A stretch of 64,000 bases of DNA from Claveliimonas monacensis (GTDB lineage Bacteria; Bacillota; Clostridia; Lachnospirales; Lachnospiraceae). The notes under the pieces are model-generated. The model was not told the DNA's origin, searched no databases, and saw nothing but the letters and a program-made list of their open reading frames with translations. A program made the position numbers and the translations under genes. The stretch covers positions 1 through 64,000 of the forward strand of contig NZ_JADCKL010000010.1 of the NCBI RefSeq assembly GCF_014982975.1, in the 5' to 3' direction. Positions 33,439 to 39,999 of this stretch are shown here, in pieces. The first letter of the stretch is position 1. Each line of letters opens with the position of its first letter.

Positions 33439-34320
33439 ATGGATATTAACTATGAATTATATAAAGTATTTTACTATGTTGCCTCGACTTTAAGTTTTTC
33501 CGAGGCCTCCAAGCAGCTTTTCATCTCCCAGTCAGCGGTGAGCCAATCCATCAAGACGTTAGAGAGAAAGCTGGACCAGGTTCTCTTTATCCGGAGCACA
33601 AAGAGAGTCCAGCTGACACCCGAGGGGGAGATCCTGCTGCGTCACGTGGAGCCGGCCATGAACCTGATCCAGCGGGGAGAGTCCCAGCTTATGGAATCCG
33701 CCTCCACCGGAGGACAGATCCGCATCGGCGCCAGCGACACCATTTGCCGGTATTTTCTCGTGCCCTACATCAAGCGGTTCCACGAGGCTTTTCCCGGCGC
33801 TCACATCAAGGTGACCAACGCCACCTCCATCCAGAGCGTGGAGCTGCTGAAATCAGGACAAGTAGACTTTATCGTTGTCAACTCGCCCAACGCCTACTTA
33901 GGGAGCGCTGCCACGGTCAAACGGATCAAACTGTTTCAGGATGTCTTTCTGGCCAACCGGGACTTTGAGGAACTAAAAGGCCGCCAGCTCTCTTTTGCAG
34001 AGCTTCTTAAGTATCCCATCCTGATGCTGGACAAAAAAAGCACCACCAGCGAATTTCTCCACAGCCAGTTCCAGCAGCATCACCTCGACCTTGTCCCGGA
34101 GGTGGAGCTTAGCAGCAATGACCTGCTCATTGACCTGGCCAAGATTGGGCTGGGCATCGCCTTTCTCCCGGACTACTGCATTCCCAGGGAGGACGACAAT
34201 CTCTTCGTCGTAAAGACAAAGGAAGAACTACCTCAGAGGGAGCTGCTGGCTGTCCGGGGCACACGCATCCCTCTGTCCAAGGCTGCCGCTGCCTTTCTCG
34301 ACTATTTTGAGGAAGTCTGA
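33439..34320 (+). CDS. LysR-family transcriptional regulator
   Basis: 293 aa. N-terminal winged HTH (LSFSEASKQLFISQSAVSQSIKTLE, 19-43) and a type 2 periplasmic-binding-like effector domain from about residue 90. The CysL/YtlI-like subgroup is possible, but the effector is unknown. Start has TAGGAGG. Its last 19 bases overlap the convergent nuclease-helicase gene. The divergent DUF1461 gene is a candidate target. Confidence 0.92.
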   Translation: MDINYELYKVFYYVASTLSFSEASKQLFISQSAVSQSIKTLERKLDQVLFIRSTKRVQLTPEGEILLRHVEPAMNLIQRGESQLMESASTGGQIRIGASDTICRYFLVPYIKRFHEAFPGAHIKVTNATSIQSVELLKSGQVDFIVVNSPNAYLGSAATVKRIKLFQDVFLANRDFEELKGRQLSFAELLKYPILMLDKKSTTSEFLHSQFQQHHLDLVPEVELSSNDLLIDLAKIGLGIAFLPDYCIPREDDNLFVVKTKEELPQRELLAVRGTRIPLSKAAAAFLDYFEEV

Positions 34321-36689
34321 TCCCAGAACAGCCGCATTTTATCACCCGCATTTTTCACATTGCATATCTCCAGGCCTTCCCACTCTCTTGGGAAGGTCTC
34401 TTTGTATCTGGGCTCCCGGAAACGGTCGTCCAAAAGCAGGATCACCCCTCTGTCCTCCTCCGTGCGGATGACACGGCCCGCAGACTGGAGCACCTTGTTC
34501 ATGCCCGGATAGACGTAAGCATAGTCAAATCCCCGAAGCCCTTTTTTGTCGAAATAGTCTTTCAGAAGTTCCCGTTCCCTGCACACCTGGGGCAGTCCGG
34601 TCCCCACCACCGCAGCGCCTATAAGCCGGTCTCTGGACAGATCGATGCCCTCGGAAAAGATGCCGCCCATAACGCAGAACCCAAGCAGGCTCTCCTCTCT
34701 CTCCTCCTCAAATTCTTCCAGGAAAATCTCCCTCGCCTCCTCCGACATGTAAGGGGCCTGGATCACACACTGGATCCGACTTCCCTCCTTCTCAGCCAGG
34801 AGGAGGAACCGGTCGTATACTTCCTCCATGAACTTGTAGGAGGGGAAAAAGGCCATGTAATTGCCCTTTTTTTCCCGCACCATCTCCAGGAGATAGGAGG
34901 CATACTTCCGGTAGGTGGTTTCTCCCCTCGCCGTGTAGCGGGTGCTGACGTCATTTCCCAGGAGGAGAAGGCGGTTTTCCCTTGCGAAGGTGGACTCCGC
35001 ATACACAGCGTAGTCGTCACTTTTTGTGCTCAAGAGCTGCTTGTAATACCGGATAGGAAGGAGGGTGGCAGAAAAGAAGACCGTGCTCACCCCCTTTTCC
35101 AGCGCCTCATTTAAGTTCACCGCAGGGTTGACGCAGAACAGGCGGATGAGGAATTTTCCCTCCCCGTCAATCTCCGAGTAGATCATATAATTCTCATCCA
35201 GCTTCTCGTAGATCGTCTCGAACATCCGCACTTCAAAATAGAGGTCCAGCACCTCCTCCCGCACATCTTCTTCCTTGCACTCTTCCAGATATCTCTCCAT
35301 CTCCGCCATGACTGACAAAAGCTTCAGGTAGATGCCTCCGGCACTCTCCAGCACCTGGCAGCCGTCACACTCCCTCTTCAGGGCCAGGAGCTGGCGGTTG
35401 CACTCCTCCAGCTGACGGGCCAGCCGCCCATCTCTTGTCTTTACCAGGCGGCGCACCTTCATCACATCTTCCTTACAGAGGCTGGCGCTGAACATCTCCC
35501 GCCCCCGCTCCACCAGATTGTGTGCCTCATCGATCAGGAAAATATAGTCCCCTTTTACTCCCTCACCAAAAAAACGCTTCAGCTTTGCGTTTGGGTCAAA
35601 GACATAATTGTAATCGCAGATCACCGCGTCTGCCCACAAAGACAGATCCAGCCCCAGCTCAAAAGGGCACACCTGCCATTTCTTTGCCTGCTCCTCCACC
35701 GCCTGCCGGCTCATGTCGTCGGAGGTGGTGATCATCTCGTAGACCGCATCGTTGATCCTGTCAAAATGCCCTTTGGCGTAAGGGCAGTAGTCCGGGTTGC
35801 ACTCCGGCTTCTCGCAGAAGCAGATCTTCTCCTTGGCTGTCAGGGTGATGACTTTGTAGCAGAGAGCCCCCTTCTCATCCTCTTCTGAACAAGCGTGTTT
35901 CAGAATGTCAAAGGCCTGCTGGGCCACTGTCCTGGTGATAGTCTTGGCCGTGAGATAGAAAAGCTTATCTGCCAGCCCTTCGCCCACTGCCTTCACAGCA
36001 GGAAAGACCGTGGCCATAGTCTTGCCCACCCCCGTGGGTGCCTGGATAAACAGCTTTTTCTTCCGCTGGATGGTCCTGTAGACTGCGGCTGCCAGCTTTT
36101 TCTGCCCTTCCCTGTACTGATAGGGAAATTCCACCTGTTTGATGGAGGCATTCCGCTTTTCCTTCCACTCCACCTGGAAGAGTGCCCACTTCTCATAGGC
36201 ATCCGTGATGCCGTAAAACCACTCTCTCAATTCTTCTATCTTGTACTCCTGCCGGAAACGGCGGATCTCTTCAGTCTCCAGATGGCAGTAGGTCATCTGC
36301 ACGCCCATCTTCTCCTGCCCGTTCTGCTCCCCATAGATAAAAGCATAGCATTTGGCCTGGGCCAGATGCACCGGGACTGGCTCCTCCATCGTGTTCACAT
36401 CCTTGAACACGCCTTTGATCTCGTCAATTACCAGTCCCTCCTCTGTATCCATGACGCCGTCCGCCCGACCCTCCACCTGGAGGATGAACTTTTCGTACGG
36501 TACCTGGCACTTCACGGACACCTCCGGAGTGTACAGACTTCCCATCTGCCGCTGGATCTTCCGGTGGAGGCGGGCCCCCATCTGCATGGCCTCCTTGTCA
36601 GCTGAGGCAGTTCGATTGTCAAGGTCCCCGCTCTGGAGGATGAACTCCACCAGGGCGCGGACCGAAATTTTGATCAGTTGCTTTTCCAT
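34302..36689 (-). CDS. RecB/Cas4-like nuclease fused to Fe-S XPD/DinG helicase
   Basis: 795 aa. Residues 1-125 form a PD-(D/E)XK nuclease-like domain: Asp77 in EGRAD, then Asp89-Glu90-Ile-Lys92, and the Q-x3-Y motif (Gln111, Tyr115) typical of Cas4/AddB/RecB nucleases. A superfamily 2 helicase follows: Walker A APTGVGKT (217-224), a Cys cluster (290, 292, 297, 302) where XPD/DinG hold a 4Fe-4S cluster, and DEAH at 387-390; QSAGRVIRTEEDRG is motif VI. Probably unwinds and cuts damaged or structured DNA. No ribosome site precedes the ATG, and the promoter places the start of transcription at or next to it. Confidence 0.9.
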   Translation of the reverse strand: MEKQLIKISVRALVEFILQSGDLDNRTASADKEAMQMGARLHRKIQRQMGSLYTPEVSVKCQVPYEKFILQVEGRADGVMDTEEGLVIDEIKGVFKDVNTMEEPVPVHLAQAKCYAFIYGEQNGQEKMGVQMTYCHLETEEIRRFRQEYKIEELREWFYGITDAYEKWALFQVEWKEKRNASIKQVEFPYQYREGQKKLAAAVYRTIQRKKKLFIQAPTGVGKTMATVFPAVKAVGEGLADKLFYLTAKTITRTVAQQAFDILKHACSEEDEKGALCYKVITLTAKEKICFCEKPECNPDYCPYAKGHFDRINDAVYEMITTSDDMSRQAVEEQAKKWQVCPFELGLDLSLWADAVICDYNYVFDPNAKLKRFFGEGVKGDYIFLIDEAHNLVERGREMFSASLCKEDVMKVRRLVKTRDGRLARQLEECNRQLLALKRECDGCQVLESAGGIYLKLLSVMAEMERYLEECKEEDVREEVLDLYFEVRMFETIYEKLDENYMIYSEIDGEGKFLIRLFCVNPAVNLNEALEKGVSTVFFSATLLPIRYYKQLLSTKSDDYAVYAESTFARENRLLLLGNDVSTRYTARGETTYRKYASYLLEMVREKKGNYMAFFPSYKFMEEVYDRFLLLAEKEGSRIQCVIQAPYMSEEAREIFLEEFEEEREESLLGFCVMGGIFSEGIDLSRDRLIGAAVVGTGLPQVCRERELLKDYFDKKGLRGFDYAYVYPGMNKVLQSAGRVIRTEEDRGVILLLDDRFREPRYKETFPREWEGLEICNVKNAGDKMRLFWDQTSSK

Positions 36690-36695
36690 AGGTCT

Positions 36696-36724
36696 ATTAT
36701 AAGTGGGGACGTAATACTTTTCAA
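36696..36724 (-). promoter_or_regulatory. Leaderless promoter of the nuclease-helicase
   Basis: TTGAAA (36719-36724), 17-bp spacer, TATAAT (36696-36701). The usual start of transcription, seven bases on, is 36689, the A of the start codon. The spacer is part of a degenerate palindrome. Confidence 0.7.
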
Positions 36725-36740
36725 CAATGTTACGTCCGAA
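36703..36740. repeat. Degenerate REP-like palindrome, copy 1
   Basis: GTGGGGACGTAATA and TGTTACGTCC arms form an imperfect hairpin. The GGGGACGTAA core is shared with the near-perfect palindrome at 39118-39170. Confidence 0.55.
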
Positions 36741-36816
36741 ATCAAACCAACTGGTGGGGTATTGTGCATAGCAAAAAAATAATATCTGATTATTTTTTGG
36801 AATTGTCTATCCTGAA

Positions 36817-37593
36817 CTATCTAACAAATTCTGTCATGTTGGGGCGGTACCGAAGCGGAAGGTGAGTCCTCTGGCATTTGGGGTTTTCTCTTTCCTTAAT
36901 GGAAATGGTATTGCAAAACTCCCGCCACAGCTTCTGCATTTCTTCCTCCTGATCTGAAAGGCGGGACAGTCTCGCATCCAATCGGCCTTCCATATCTTCC
37001 TCCTGCACCAGGACCCAGCGCCGTCCCGACTCGTGAACAACGAACATATCCCGGTTTTTATCCCGTATCATCCAGTTCTCCAGTGGAAAGCGTTCTTGAA
37101 AATGAGCTCCCAGACAGGTCAGGACCTGATTTTTCGGTGTGATGTCCGCAAAAAGTATTCCATTTTCCAGTTCCTGAAAGCGCACAAACCCTGTCAGCAG
37201 ATGGGCTTCATTTCCCACAGCACGGCTTAACTCAAACACCTTTTCTACAGAAGGGTTTCCAAGATGCTCCATGATCTTCCGGGGCTGCCTGATCTTCCGG
37301 GCCGCAAGAAGGGTACCCAGGATCGCCTCGCCTTTTTGGTCGTCCCGCGAAAGAGCTGCATAGTAAATATGATGATAGACATCCTGACCAAGATTGCCCA
37401 GGATCATCCGCTCCACTGCCTCCGCTTTACTCTCCTTTTCCAGGATCTCCCGGTACTCGCAGAACAGCTCCGGCTCCACGCTGCCCTGGATCGCAATCCC
37501 GCTTGCCCCCTCCCGGCGCCGGTCTTTCCACGCCTCATACACAGCAGAAAAGATTCCTGTGATGCTGTCTGTGCAGATATAGATTGTTTTCAT
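36817..37593 (-). CDS. DUF4130 / TIGR03915 DNA metabolism protein
   Basis: 258 aa. Matches the TIGR03915 family (DUF4130 domain), annotated as a probable DNA metabolism protein. In other bacteria the same domain is fused to uracil-DNA glycosylase-like enzymes. The C-terminus RTHLPLRYRPNMTEF is a family signature. Its start overlaps the radical SAM stop by 4 bp (ATGA), so the two are made together. Exact chemistry is not established. Confidence 0.88.
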   Translation of the reverse strand: MKTIYICTDSITGIFSAVYEAWKDRRREGASGIAIQGSVEPELFCEYREILEKESKAEAVERMILGNLGQDVYHHIYYAALSRDDQKGEAILGTLLAARKIRQPRKIMEHLGNPSVEKVFELSRAVGNEAHLLTGFVRFQELENGILFADITPKNQVLTCLGAHFQERFPLENWMIRDKNRDMFVVHESGRRWVLVQEEDMEGRLDARLSRLSDQEEEMQKLWREFCNTISIKERENPKCQRTHLPLRYRPNMTEFVR

Positions 37594-38918
37594 ATGACGC
37601 CTCCCTCCGCCGCACTGCCAAATCTTACATCATCAAAAAGCGAGAGCTGTCTGAATGTCATGCCGCCGGCTCCCTCAGGCAGCCTCTCCTTTACATTCAA
37701 TAAATTCCGCGTGATATAGTCCTCCTCGATTTTTACCGGATACATCATCTTCCCGCTGCACGTCAGAAAATACAGAGCCCTTTTGAGCACCACCCCCATT
37801 TTCTTCAGATCGCCAAAATCCAGTTTTCCATACCGCCTGGCCTTCACGATCCTTCCAGCCGACTTGTAACCAATGCCTGGTACTCGCAGCAGAAGTTCAT
37901 ATCTTGCGGTATTGACCTCAACAGGAAATACATCCAGATTACGCAGAGCCCAGTTGCACTTGGGATCAAGGAAAATATTGAAGTTTGGATTTTCTTCTGT
38001 CAGGAGCTCCCCAGCCTGAAACTGGTAGTATCTGAGCAGAAAATCCGCCTGGTACAGTCGGTGTTCCCGAAGGAGTGGCGGCCCCTCCCCTGTTCTGGCC
38101 GGCAGGGAGGCGTCCTCATTTACGTGTACAAAAGCAGAATAGAACACTCGCTTTAACCCGAACTTCTTATAGAGAGCCTCTGCCACATGAATGATCTGAA
38201 AATCCGTCTCCGGTGTGGCGCCTATAATCATCTGGGTGCTCTGCCCGGCGGGCACAAATCTCTGGGCATTCCGGTACAGCTGGATCTCCTGCCTGTTTTC
38301 CTCCATTCTGTTCTGCACAAGCCGCATGGGTGCAAGGATCCTCTCTCTTGTCTTGTGGGGCGCAAGGAGGCGCAGTCCCTCTGCTGTAGGCAGTTCCAGG
38401 TTGACGCTCATCCTGTCCGCCAGAAATCCCAGCCTCTCCAGCAGCTCCTGACTAGTGCCGGGAATAGCCTTCACATGGATGTAGCCCTGAAAGCGGTACG
38501 TTGTCCGCAGCTTATAGAGCGCCGCGTAGATAAGGTCCATTGTATAATCCGGACTTTTCAGCACACCAGAGCTCAAAAACAGGCCTTCTATGTAATTGCG
38601 CCGGTAAAACTCCATCGTCAGCGTACAGATCTCATCCGGGGTAAAGGAGGCTCTTGGCACATCGTTGCTCCTTCGGTTAATGCAGTATTTGCAGTCGTAG
38701 ATACACTCATTTGTAAACAGGATCTTCAGCAGGGAAATGCATCTCCCGTCCGCAGAAAAGCTGTGACATATTCCCGCCTGAGCACAGCTTCCGATGCCCG
38801 TGCCGTCGTTGCTGCGCTGGGTGCCACTAGACGTGCAGGCCACATCATATTTGGCCGCGTCAGTCAGTATTTTCAGTTTGTCAGCTATGGATATAGACTG
38901 CTGAAGTTCCATGATCAT
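37590..38918 (-). CDS. DNA modification/repair radical SAM protein (TIGR03916)
   Basis: 442 aa. A radical SAM cluster motif C-x3-C-x2-C lies at Cys72, Cys76 and Cys79 (ECIYDCKYC), with further Cys at 28, 45, 51 and 60. The C-terminal part has a helix-hairpin-helix DNA-binding motif (RVPGIGYKSAGRIV, about 345-358), as in TIGR03916 proteins predicted to repair or modify DNA. I use the ATG at 38918 after GAGAGGAG; the one at 38912 is also possible. The gene is under an SOS-box promoter and is translationally coupled to the DUF4130 gene. Confidence 0.92.
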   Translation of the reverse strand: MIMELQQSISIADKLKILTDAAKYDVACTSSGTQRSNDGTGIGSCAQAGICHSFSADGRCISLLKILFTNECIYDCKYCINRRSNDVPRASFTPDEICTLTMEFYRRNYIEGLFLSSGVLKSPDYTMDLIYAALYKLRTTYRFQGYIHVKAIPGTSQELLERLGFLADRMSVNLELPTAEGLRLLAPHKTRERILAPMRLVQNRMEENRQEIQLYRNAQRFVPAGQSTQMIIGATPETDFQIIHVAEALYKKFGLKRVFYSAFVHVNEDASLPARTGEGPPLLREHRLYQADFLLRYYQFQAGELLTEENPNFNIFLDPKCNWALRNLDVFPVEVNTARYELLLRVPGIGYKSAGRIVKARRYGKLDFGDLKKMGVVLKRALYFLTCSGKMMYPVKIEEDYITRNLLNVKERLPEGAGGMTFRQLSLFDDVRFGSAAEGGVI

Positions 38919-38938
38919 ACATCTCCTCTCAACAATAT

Positions 38939-38987
38939 AGAACATATGTTCTTATCTCAGTATACAAACGTATGTTCTGCATGTCAA
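38939..38987 (-). promoter_or_regulatory. SOS promoter with two LexA boxes
   Basis: TTGACA (38982-38987), 17-bp spacer, TATACT (38959-38964). LexA box 1 AGAACATATGTTCT (38939-38952) is a perfect GAAC-N4-GTTC palindrome over the start of transcription. Box 2 (GAACATACGTTT, 38966-38977) lies inside the spacer with one mismatch. Centres are 26 bp apart. Confidence 0.88.
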
Positions 38988-39117: not shown

Positions 39118-39170
39118 AACGTAAATGGGGACGTAACCCTTTTAAAAAGGGTTACGTCCCCATTTACGTT
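39118..39170. repeat. Near-perfect 53-bp REP-like palindrome, copy 2
   Basis: Arms of 26 bases (AACGTAAATGGGGACGTAAC and complement) around a T4/A5 centre, overlapping the Mrp stop codon by two bases. It could act as a transcription stop, but the length and the shared core with 36703-36740 suggest a dispersed palindromic repeat. Confidence 0.8.
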
Positions 39171-39999
39171 ATAACTTATTCACCACGTCCGCCAGGTACT
39201 GGTTGTCCGCCTCGTAGAACCGTTCTTCTTCCACGGACTCCGCCAGCTTCGGGTCAATGGGCATTTTCCCGAGGACCGGCACACCCAGTTCCCGGGCTGT
39301 CTCCTCGATGTGGCTCTCGCCGAACACGGAGATCTTCTTTCCGCAGTCCGGGCATACGAGATAACTGTAATTTTCCACAATGCCCAGCACCGGAATGTTC
39401 ATCTGCCTGGCCATGTTGCAGGCCTTGTCCACGATCATCTGCACCAGGTCCTGCGGTGAGGTGACGATGACGATGCCGTCCACCGGCAGGGACTGGAACA
39501 CCGTGAGAGGCACGTCCCCGGTTCCGGGAGGCATGTCCACAAACAGGTAATCCAGCTCCCCCCACATAACATCAGTCCAGAACTGCTTCACCACTCCCGC
39601 GATGATGGGACCTCTCCAGATCACCGGGTCAGACTCATGCTCCAGGAGCAGGTTGACGGACATGACCTTCGTGCCGTCCTTTGCCACGCTGGGGAAGATT
39701 CCCTCGTCGCTCCCCTTTGCCGTCTCGTGTATACCATACATCTTCGGGATGGACGGCCCTGTAATATCCGCATCCAGGATCCCCACGGAAAATCCCTGCT
39801 CCCGCATGATCCTTGCCAGGGAGGCCGTCACCATGGACTTGCCCACGCCGCCTTTTCCGCTGACCACGGCGATCACTTTATTCACATGAGAAAACGGGTT
39901 CGCCGGTTCCCTCATATCCTGGGGCTTGCTGCCGCAGGAGTCTGCATGGGCGCACCCCGCACAGTCGGAGGGGGAGCACCCGTTTTGCTGCTCTGCCAT
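39169..39999 (-). CDS. Mrp/NBP35-type Fe-S carrier ATPase
   Basis: 276 aa P-loop ATPase that helps assemble or carry Fe-S clusters. N-terminal Cys at 8, 13, 16 and 22 resemble the NBP35 cluster motif; the deviant Walker A GKGGVGKS is at 48-55; PPGTGD and the CPDCGKK pair (bridging cluster) follow. Start has AGAGG. Its stop codon abuts the 53-bp palindrome. Confidence 0.93.
   Translation of the reverse strand: MAEQQNGCSPSDCAGCAHADSCGSKPQDMREPANPFSHVNKVIAVVSGKGGVGKSMVTASLARIMREQGFSVGILDADITGPSIPKMYGIHETAKGSDEGIFPSVAKDGTKVMSVNLLLEHESDPVIWRGPIIAGVVKQFWTDVMWGELDYLFVDMPPGTGDVPLTVFQSLPVDGIVIVTSPQDLVQMIVDKACNMARQMNIPVLGIVENYSYLVCPDCGKKISVFGESHIEETARELGVPVLGKMPIDPKLAESVEEERFYEADNQYLADVVNKL

Follow-up and report, generated by a model that had tools for sequence, protein, structure and literature searches.

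Operons related to the one described here have been linked to the bacterial SOS response before. In Clostridium acetobutylicum, CAC3343-CAC3344 was predicted in 2013 to be a LexA operon on the basis of a footprint and expression clustering; the passages of that study consulted here contain neither a clamp motif nor extra cysteines (PMC3828012). For Bacteroidetes, the consulted parts of PMC8565304 likewise place a two-gene operon, COG1573-COG4277, in a predicted SOS network; its LexA motifs are different, it includes a uracil-DNA glycosylase (UDG, COG1573), and a base-excision role through that glycosylase was proposed. The same parts cite earlier reports of such operons for Verrucomicrobia and Alphaproteobacteria. 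A LexA regulon table of Streptomyces venezuelae includes a radical S-adenosylmethionine (SAM) gene (PMC9380542), and the words 'radical' and 'uracil' are absent from the main texts of a C. difficile LexA screen (PMC4234289) and of a gut SOS paper (PMC3998124). Since published work already predicts that LexA controls orthologues, our regulatory claim is a confirmed extension and not a discovery. Here we describe an operon of a radical SAM gene and a DUF4130 gene in Claveliimonas monacensis (GCF_014982975.1, source genome 3.0 Mb), a member of the Lachnospiraceae; the window analysed comprises 64,000 nt, positions 1-64,000 of contig NZ_JADCKL010000010.1. The radical SAM protein belongs to TIGR03916, which we take to be the same family as COG4277. 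Its C-terminal tail carries a predicted sliding-clamp-binding motif, which is new here: among the open-licence PMC papers listed, none was seen to connect TIGR03916 enzymes with the clamp.

The radical SAM protein scores 684.5 bits against TIGR03916 (NCBIfam cut-off 343.5) and covers model positions 1-414 of 415; the partner protein reaches 247 bits against TIGR03915 (cut-off 112.25) and matches PF13566 DUF4130 in Pfam with E 7.2e-50. These scores and the shared ATGA at 37590-37593 bear out the initial annotation, which had described a radical SAM/helix-hairpin-helix (HhH) gene coupled through ATGA to a DUF4130 gene. The range it assigned to the module covered the radical SAM gene and left the DUF4130 gene outside, and the listed open reading frame (ORF) start at 38945 falls inside a LexA box; the gene likely starts at 38918 (or 38912), behind AGGAG. 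Neither protein had a match in a defence-system library.

The operon promoter (TTGACA-17-TATACT) carries 11 of 12 consensus bases with a spacer of 17 nt. The first base of the perfect LexA box lies 8 nt after the last -10 base, so that the box sits about at the transcription start. The annotated arrangement of a consensus promoter with a perfect box at the start (0 mismatches) and a second box in the spacer (1 mismatch) was thus confirmed. By count alone the motif is not enriched: GAACN4GTTC with up to one mismatch occurs 20 times in the window against 22.55 expected, and 19 perfect boxes in the genome compare with 47 for a reversed control pattern. Box counts, being at or below chance in both window and genome, were therefore rejected as evidence on their own, and the significance of the boxes rests on their position and conservation. 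We examined 15 of the 19 perfect genomic sites as loci (4 were left out): five precede lexA/yneA, recA, uvrB, a Y-family polymerase and the radical SAM/DUF4130 pair, seven lie within a longer ORF and three were unclassified.

Conservation was assessed in 350 nt upstream of TIGR03916 orthologues. Among 200 sampled Lachnospiraceae genomes, TIGR03916 and TIGR03915 are above cut-off in the same 112; two gene fragments were left out, leaving 110 upstream regions, and six control palindromes were scored alongside. A box with up to one mismatch was found in 108 of the 110 regions (controls: 7-19), a perfect box in 57 (controls: 0) and two or more boxes in 83 (controls: 0-1). Genome G115 and a contig end where the upstream sequence is 66 nt long account for the two regions lacking a box. 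At the four unspecified centre positions, ATAT and AAAT tend to be favoured. The expectation that boxes would be conserved in front of orthologues therefore held strongly, and the motif is that of the genome's own SOS genes. The spacing of the two gene-nearest boxes clusters at ∼25-30 and 56-58 nt, with exactly 57 nt in 13 cases, which suggests a preferred LexA geometry. Beyond the family genomes, the box is present in 65 of 80 contig loci (the best 80 of 593 confirmed loci) and in 21/29 and 25/36 loci of wider phylum samples. All three alphaproteobacterial operons read (Thioclava, Azospirillum, Leisingera) carry GAACN7GAAC, the alphaproteobacterial type of LexA box, just upstream. That one gene is found behind LexA motifs of different types speaks for a functional SOS link. 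In two Bacteroidota operons no GAACN7GAAC was seen by eye, in a search that did not cover Bacteroidota LexA motifs. Taken from the conserved GAACN4GTTC promoter box, the predicted membership of the pair in the LexA regulon is supported.

The tail of the radical SAM protein contains QLSLF. The consulted parts of PMC12309361 give QL[S/D]LF as the clamp-binding consensus and report that the QLSLF peptide of Bacillus subtilis PolC binds DnaN with a dissociation constant of 3.8 μM. Clamp-binding polymerases such as PolC share with our protein the pentapeptide and its C-terminal position, but here the carrier is a radical SAM enzyme and clamp binding is predicted. The PolC of C. monacensis itself ends in NQLSLFDAW. 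The Y-family polymerase with an SOS box in the same genome (L009:181-1470) has QYDLF, also a clamp-type motif, near its end. A strict regular expression matched 101 of 145 orthologue tails (shuffled tails: mean 0.27, maximum 2), and a broader one matched 136 of the 145 with a single match in 55,282 other residues; the strict form was found in 1 of 80 ORFs called as partner. Of the 134 proteins that remained when 181 were filtered to <80% identity, 122 carried a clamp-type motif, 117 as pentapeptide and 5 as hexapeptide, placed 15-65 residues past the last conserved block. Divergent members (337-431 bits) have QLELW, QLSWDF, QLSFDF and similar. The tail is mostly below 50 in predicted local distance difference test score (residues 413-426 and 433-441 of the structure model) and is probably disordered. 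With a conserved QL[S/D]LF/QxxLF motif in its tail, the protein is a predicted client of the sliding clamp.

A CX3CX2C motif and the modelled fold place the protein in the radical SAM superfamily, and the HhH motif scores 29.6 bits in Pfam against a cut-off of 27. Three additional N-terminal cysteines were matched by regular expression in 132 of the 134 non-redundant orthologues, and a 133rd (L132) differs in the flanking tyrosine only. Since they are near-invariant, these cysteines suggest a second iron-sulphur (Fe-S) cluster; the stretch is partly of low confidence in the structure model. C386 was rejected as a universal fourth ligand because it is absent from the three alphaproteobacterial rows. 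By sequence, the solved relatives were two ComE-type proteins and one weak radical SAM match. LipA, HydE, MqnE and HydG matched the fold about equally, within ∼1 Z. The protein differs from LipA in the HhH motif, the tail motif and the LexA boxes, and neither Pfam nor NCBIfam gave it a match to a LipA family at E up to 0.001. The annotated claim that the pair acts on DNA gains strength from the HhH and the clamp-type motif; that this action is repair, we still infer.

The structure model of the DUF4130 protein tentatively resembles DHH-type proteins (RecJ, Cdc45). Its hhalign probability was <1% against one DHH set of mixed and partly mis-sorted content and a 3-row NrnA-like set, and no sequence link to RecJ/NrnA-type proteins was found with a RecJ set contaminated by other DHHA1 proteins. 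No solved structure was related to DUF4130 by sequence at E up to 1. Residues 3-92 match phrog_6306, whose function label reads unknown (E 2.4e-6).

Pairing of the two genes is near-constant rather than absolute. Of 81 loci, the window among them, 74 have an ORF that clusters as DUF4130-type; the radical SAM gene is immediately followed by an ORF of 244-293 aa in 58 of 60 loci of the genome search, and in 31 of 36 further loci the next ORF has 235-330 aa. Contig ends and faulty ORF calls explain some of the exceptions. The radical SAM gene is also found in Bacteroidota and Alphaproteobacteria. It further occurs in 158 plasmid records, many from genera known as alphaproteobacterial; the three operons read there (L156, L158, L159) encode fusions of DUF4130 to a UdgX-type UDG. 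Ten phage-collection records, 8 of them human faecal and labelled Bacteriophage sp., and 2 IMG/VR contigs also carry orthologues (loci L161, L241 and L242 for phage and virus records), possibly as host DNA.

Table 1. Coordinates of operon features in the window
Feature	Position	Strand	Basis
-35 hexamer TTGACA	38982..38987	minus	promoter search
Predicted upstream LexA box GAACATACGTTT, 1 mismatch, inside promoter spacer	38966..38977	minus	motif scan
-10 hexamer TATACT	38959..38964	minus	promoter search
Predicted perfect LexA box GAACATATGTTC, 0 mismatches, at predicted transcription start	38940..38951	minus	motif scan
AGGAG, likely ribosome-binding site of the radical SAM gene (ATG 38918)	38923..38927	minus	sequence reading
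Radical SAM/HhH protein, TIGR03916, 442 aa from ATG 38918	37590..38918	minus	profile match
Region of the three additional, almost invariant cysteines (C27, C50, C59, A1/A3 numbering), candidate second Fe-S cluster	38739..38837	minus	orthologue alignment
CIYDCKYC, CX3CX2C radical SAM cluster motif	38682..38705	minus	motif
LLRVPGIGYKSAGRI, helix-hairpin-helix	37848..37892	minus	Pfam, motif
QLSLF, consensus beta sliding-clamp-binding motif, low-confidence C-terminal tail	37635..37649	minus	motif, model
ATGA overlap of radical SAM and DUF4130 genes	37590..37593	minus	reading frames
DUF4130/TIGR03915 partner protein, 258 aa	36817..37593	minus	profile match

We consider it probable that the operon encodes a radical enzyme of two proteins which is induced by the SOS response, tethered to the clamp and directed at DNA lesions at replication forks or behind them. 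LexA bound at the spacer and start-site boxes would repress the operon, and DNA damage would open it through RecA-driven LexA cleavage. The radical SAM enzyme would then bind DNA through its HhH motif and dock on the replication sliding clamp through the QLSLF tail, where a 5′-deoxyadenosyl radical may react with a DNA lesion or an abnormal nucleotide, either at the fork or behind it. DUF4130, the near-constant partner, would probably be a subunit holding the nucleic acid or the lesion in position, and the UdgX-type uracil-DNA domain fused to it in Alphaproteobacteria would be an accessory. The gene pairing, promoter, boxes, box conservation, motifs and tail are read from the sequence; from these we infer LexA binding, docking on the clamp, a DNA substrate, the type of chemistry and the role of the partner. 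A more far-reaching version is doubtful: a clamp-tethered radical SAM machine that has two Fe-S clusters and works with a RecJ/Cdc45-like (DHH-fold) partner would carry out a novel radical reaction on fork DNA lesions, and this would belong to the core of the SOS response in many gut anaerobes. Radical chemistry would then reach DNA by being loaded in the fashion of a polymerase.

Several points weigh against an SOS-induced, clamp-tethered enzyme for DNA lesions. The box is absent from 15 of 80 contig loci (again the best 80 of 593) and from 8/29 and 11/36 phylum loci, and the partner gene is not adjacent everywhere, as the 74/81 and 31/36 loci illustrate. Twelve of the 134 orthologues match neither form of the tail motif, several of them being near variants, and the broad and hexapeptide expressions were widened after the misses had been inspected. 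Binding of QLSLF to B. subtilis DnaN is weak according to the consulted parts of PMC12309361. Furthermore, the fold matches many radical SAM enzymes about equally and thus does not indicate the substrate.

Four other explanations were weighed. The QLSLF stretch could be a conserved tail with a partner other than the clamp, given that the clamp reading rests on sequence and short motifs may mislead; the exact consensus, the low-confidence tail, the variable linker and the identity with the motif of the genome's own PolC make this unlikely. It is equally unlikely, in our judgement, that the pair introduces a modification into DNA or helps in translesion synthesis instead of repairing lesions. 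The NCBIfam name of TIGR03916 reads modification/repair, DUF4130 has been called a predicted mutagenesis-related enzyme (PMC3765255), and a clamp motif under SOS control would also suit a polymerase accessory; on the other side, the predicted damage-specific regulation argues against constitutive modification, and no polymerase was recognised by eye in the 14 clusters recurring in at least 5 loci (first 50 residues, one member each).

An enzyme like SplB, reversing a UV thymine lesion, as grouped by a 2013 in-silico study, seems to us very unlikely. SplB resembles our protein as a radical SAM enzyme in DNA lesion repair that is SOS-regulated in several species (PMC8565304, consulted parts). 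The HhH motif, the extra N-terminal cysteines, the clamp-type motif and the DUF4130 partner found here would set our protein apart. TIGR03916 is the sole NCBIfam match of our protein at E up to 0.001, in a library without TIGR00620. The protein is also present in Bacteroidota and Alphaproteobacteria, which are not known to form endospores; this, the three extra cysteines, the HhH motif and the partner protein are all compatible with a photolyase, too. SplB was missing from the 50 fold matches listed, which proves nothing. Least credible to us is an arm of a uracil base-excision system in which the radical SAM and DUF4130 proteins serve UdgX. The DUF4130-UDG fusion in 3/3 alphaproteobacterial operons read speaks for it; GEQPG and the R-loop histidine are kept in these proteins, and the exact KRRIH is present in one of the three. 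TIGR03914, in turn, had no match in the C. monacensis genome and was above cut-off in 0/200 family genomes, though the pair is present in 112; weaker matches, up to 140 bits, occur in 12/200. UdgX is therefore dispensable in this bacterial family and was rejected as the core activity there.

A helicase gene (34302-36689) downstream of the pair was not accepted as third operon member. Among the 68 loci where the downstream sequence extends for 2.6 kb or more, it follows the pair in 18. Its upstream 300 nt hold no box with up to one mismatch in 15 of the 18 and single matches in 3, and all 12 gaps between pair and helicase that were read (of 18) contain a short similar ORF, of which one was scanned and is HPr-like. 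The helicase is DinG/XPD-like, and its N-terminal region matches phrog_1706, a CRISPR-associated phage family. Directly upstream of the Fe-S enzyme operon, on the same strand, lies a gene for an Mrp/ApbC-type ATPase of an Fe-S carrier family (39169-39999), which is not among the neighbours recurring in at least 5 loci. Between it and the promoter, a 20-pair inverted repeat (GTAAATGGGGACGTAACCC..., 39121-39167) resembles a stretch near 36700-36750 before the helicase gene (GGGGACGTAA...TTACGTCC); the two look like a dispersed palindromic element.

The pair is common in the family (112/200 sampled genomes), and the clamp-type tag together with the widely conserved SOS boxes indicates where and when it probably acts. 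With such a tag the job of the enzyme becomes directly testable, and the label 'putative DNA modification/repair' is turned into specific tests. If the proposed mechanism is true, a replisome-coupled radical enzyme would bring new chemistry to bacterial SOS repair.
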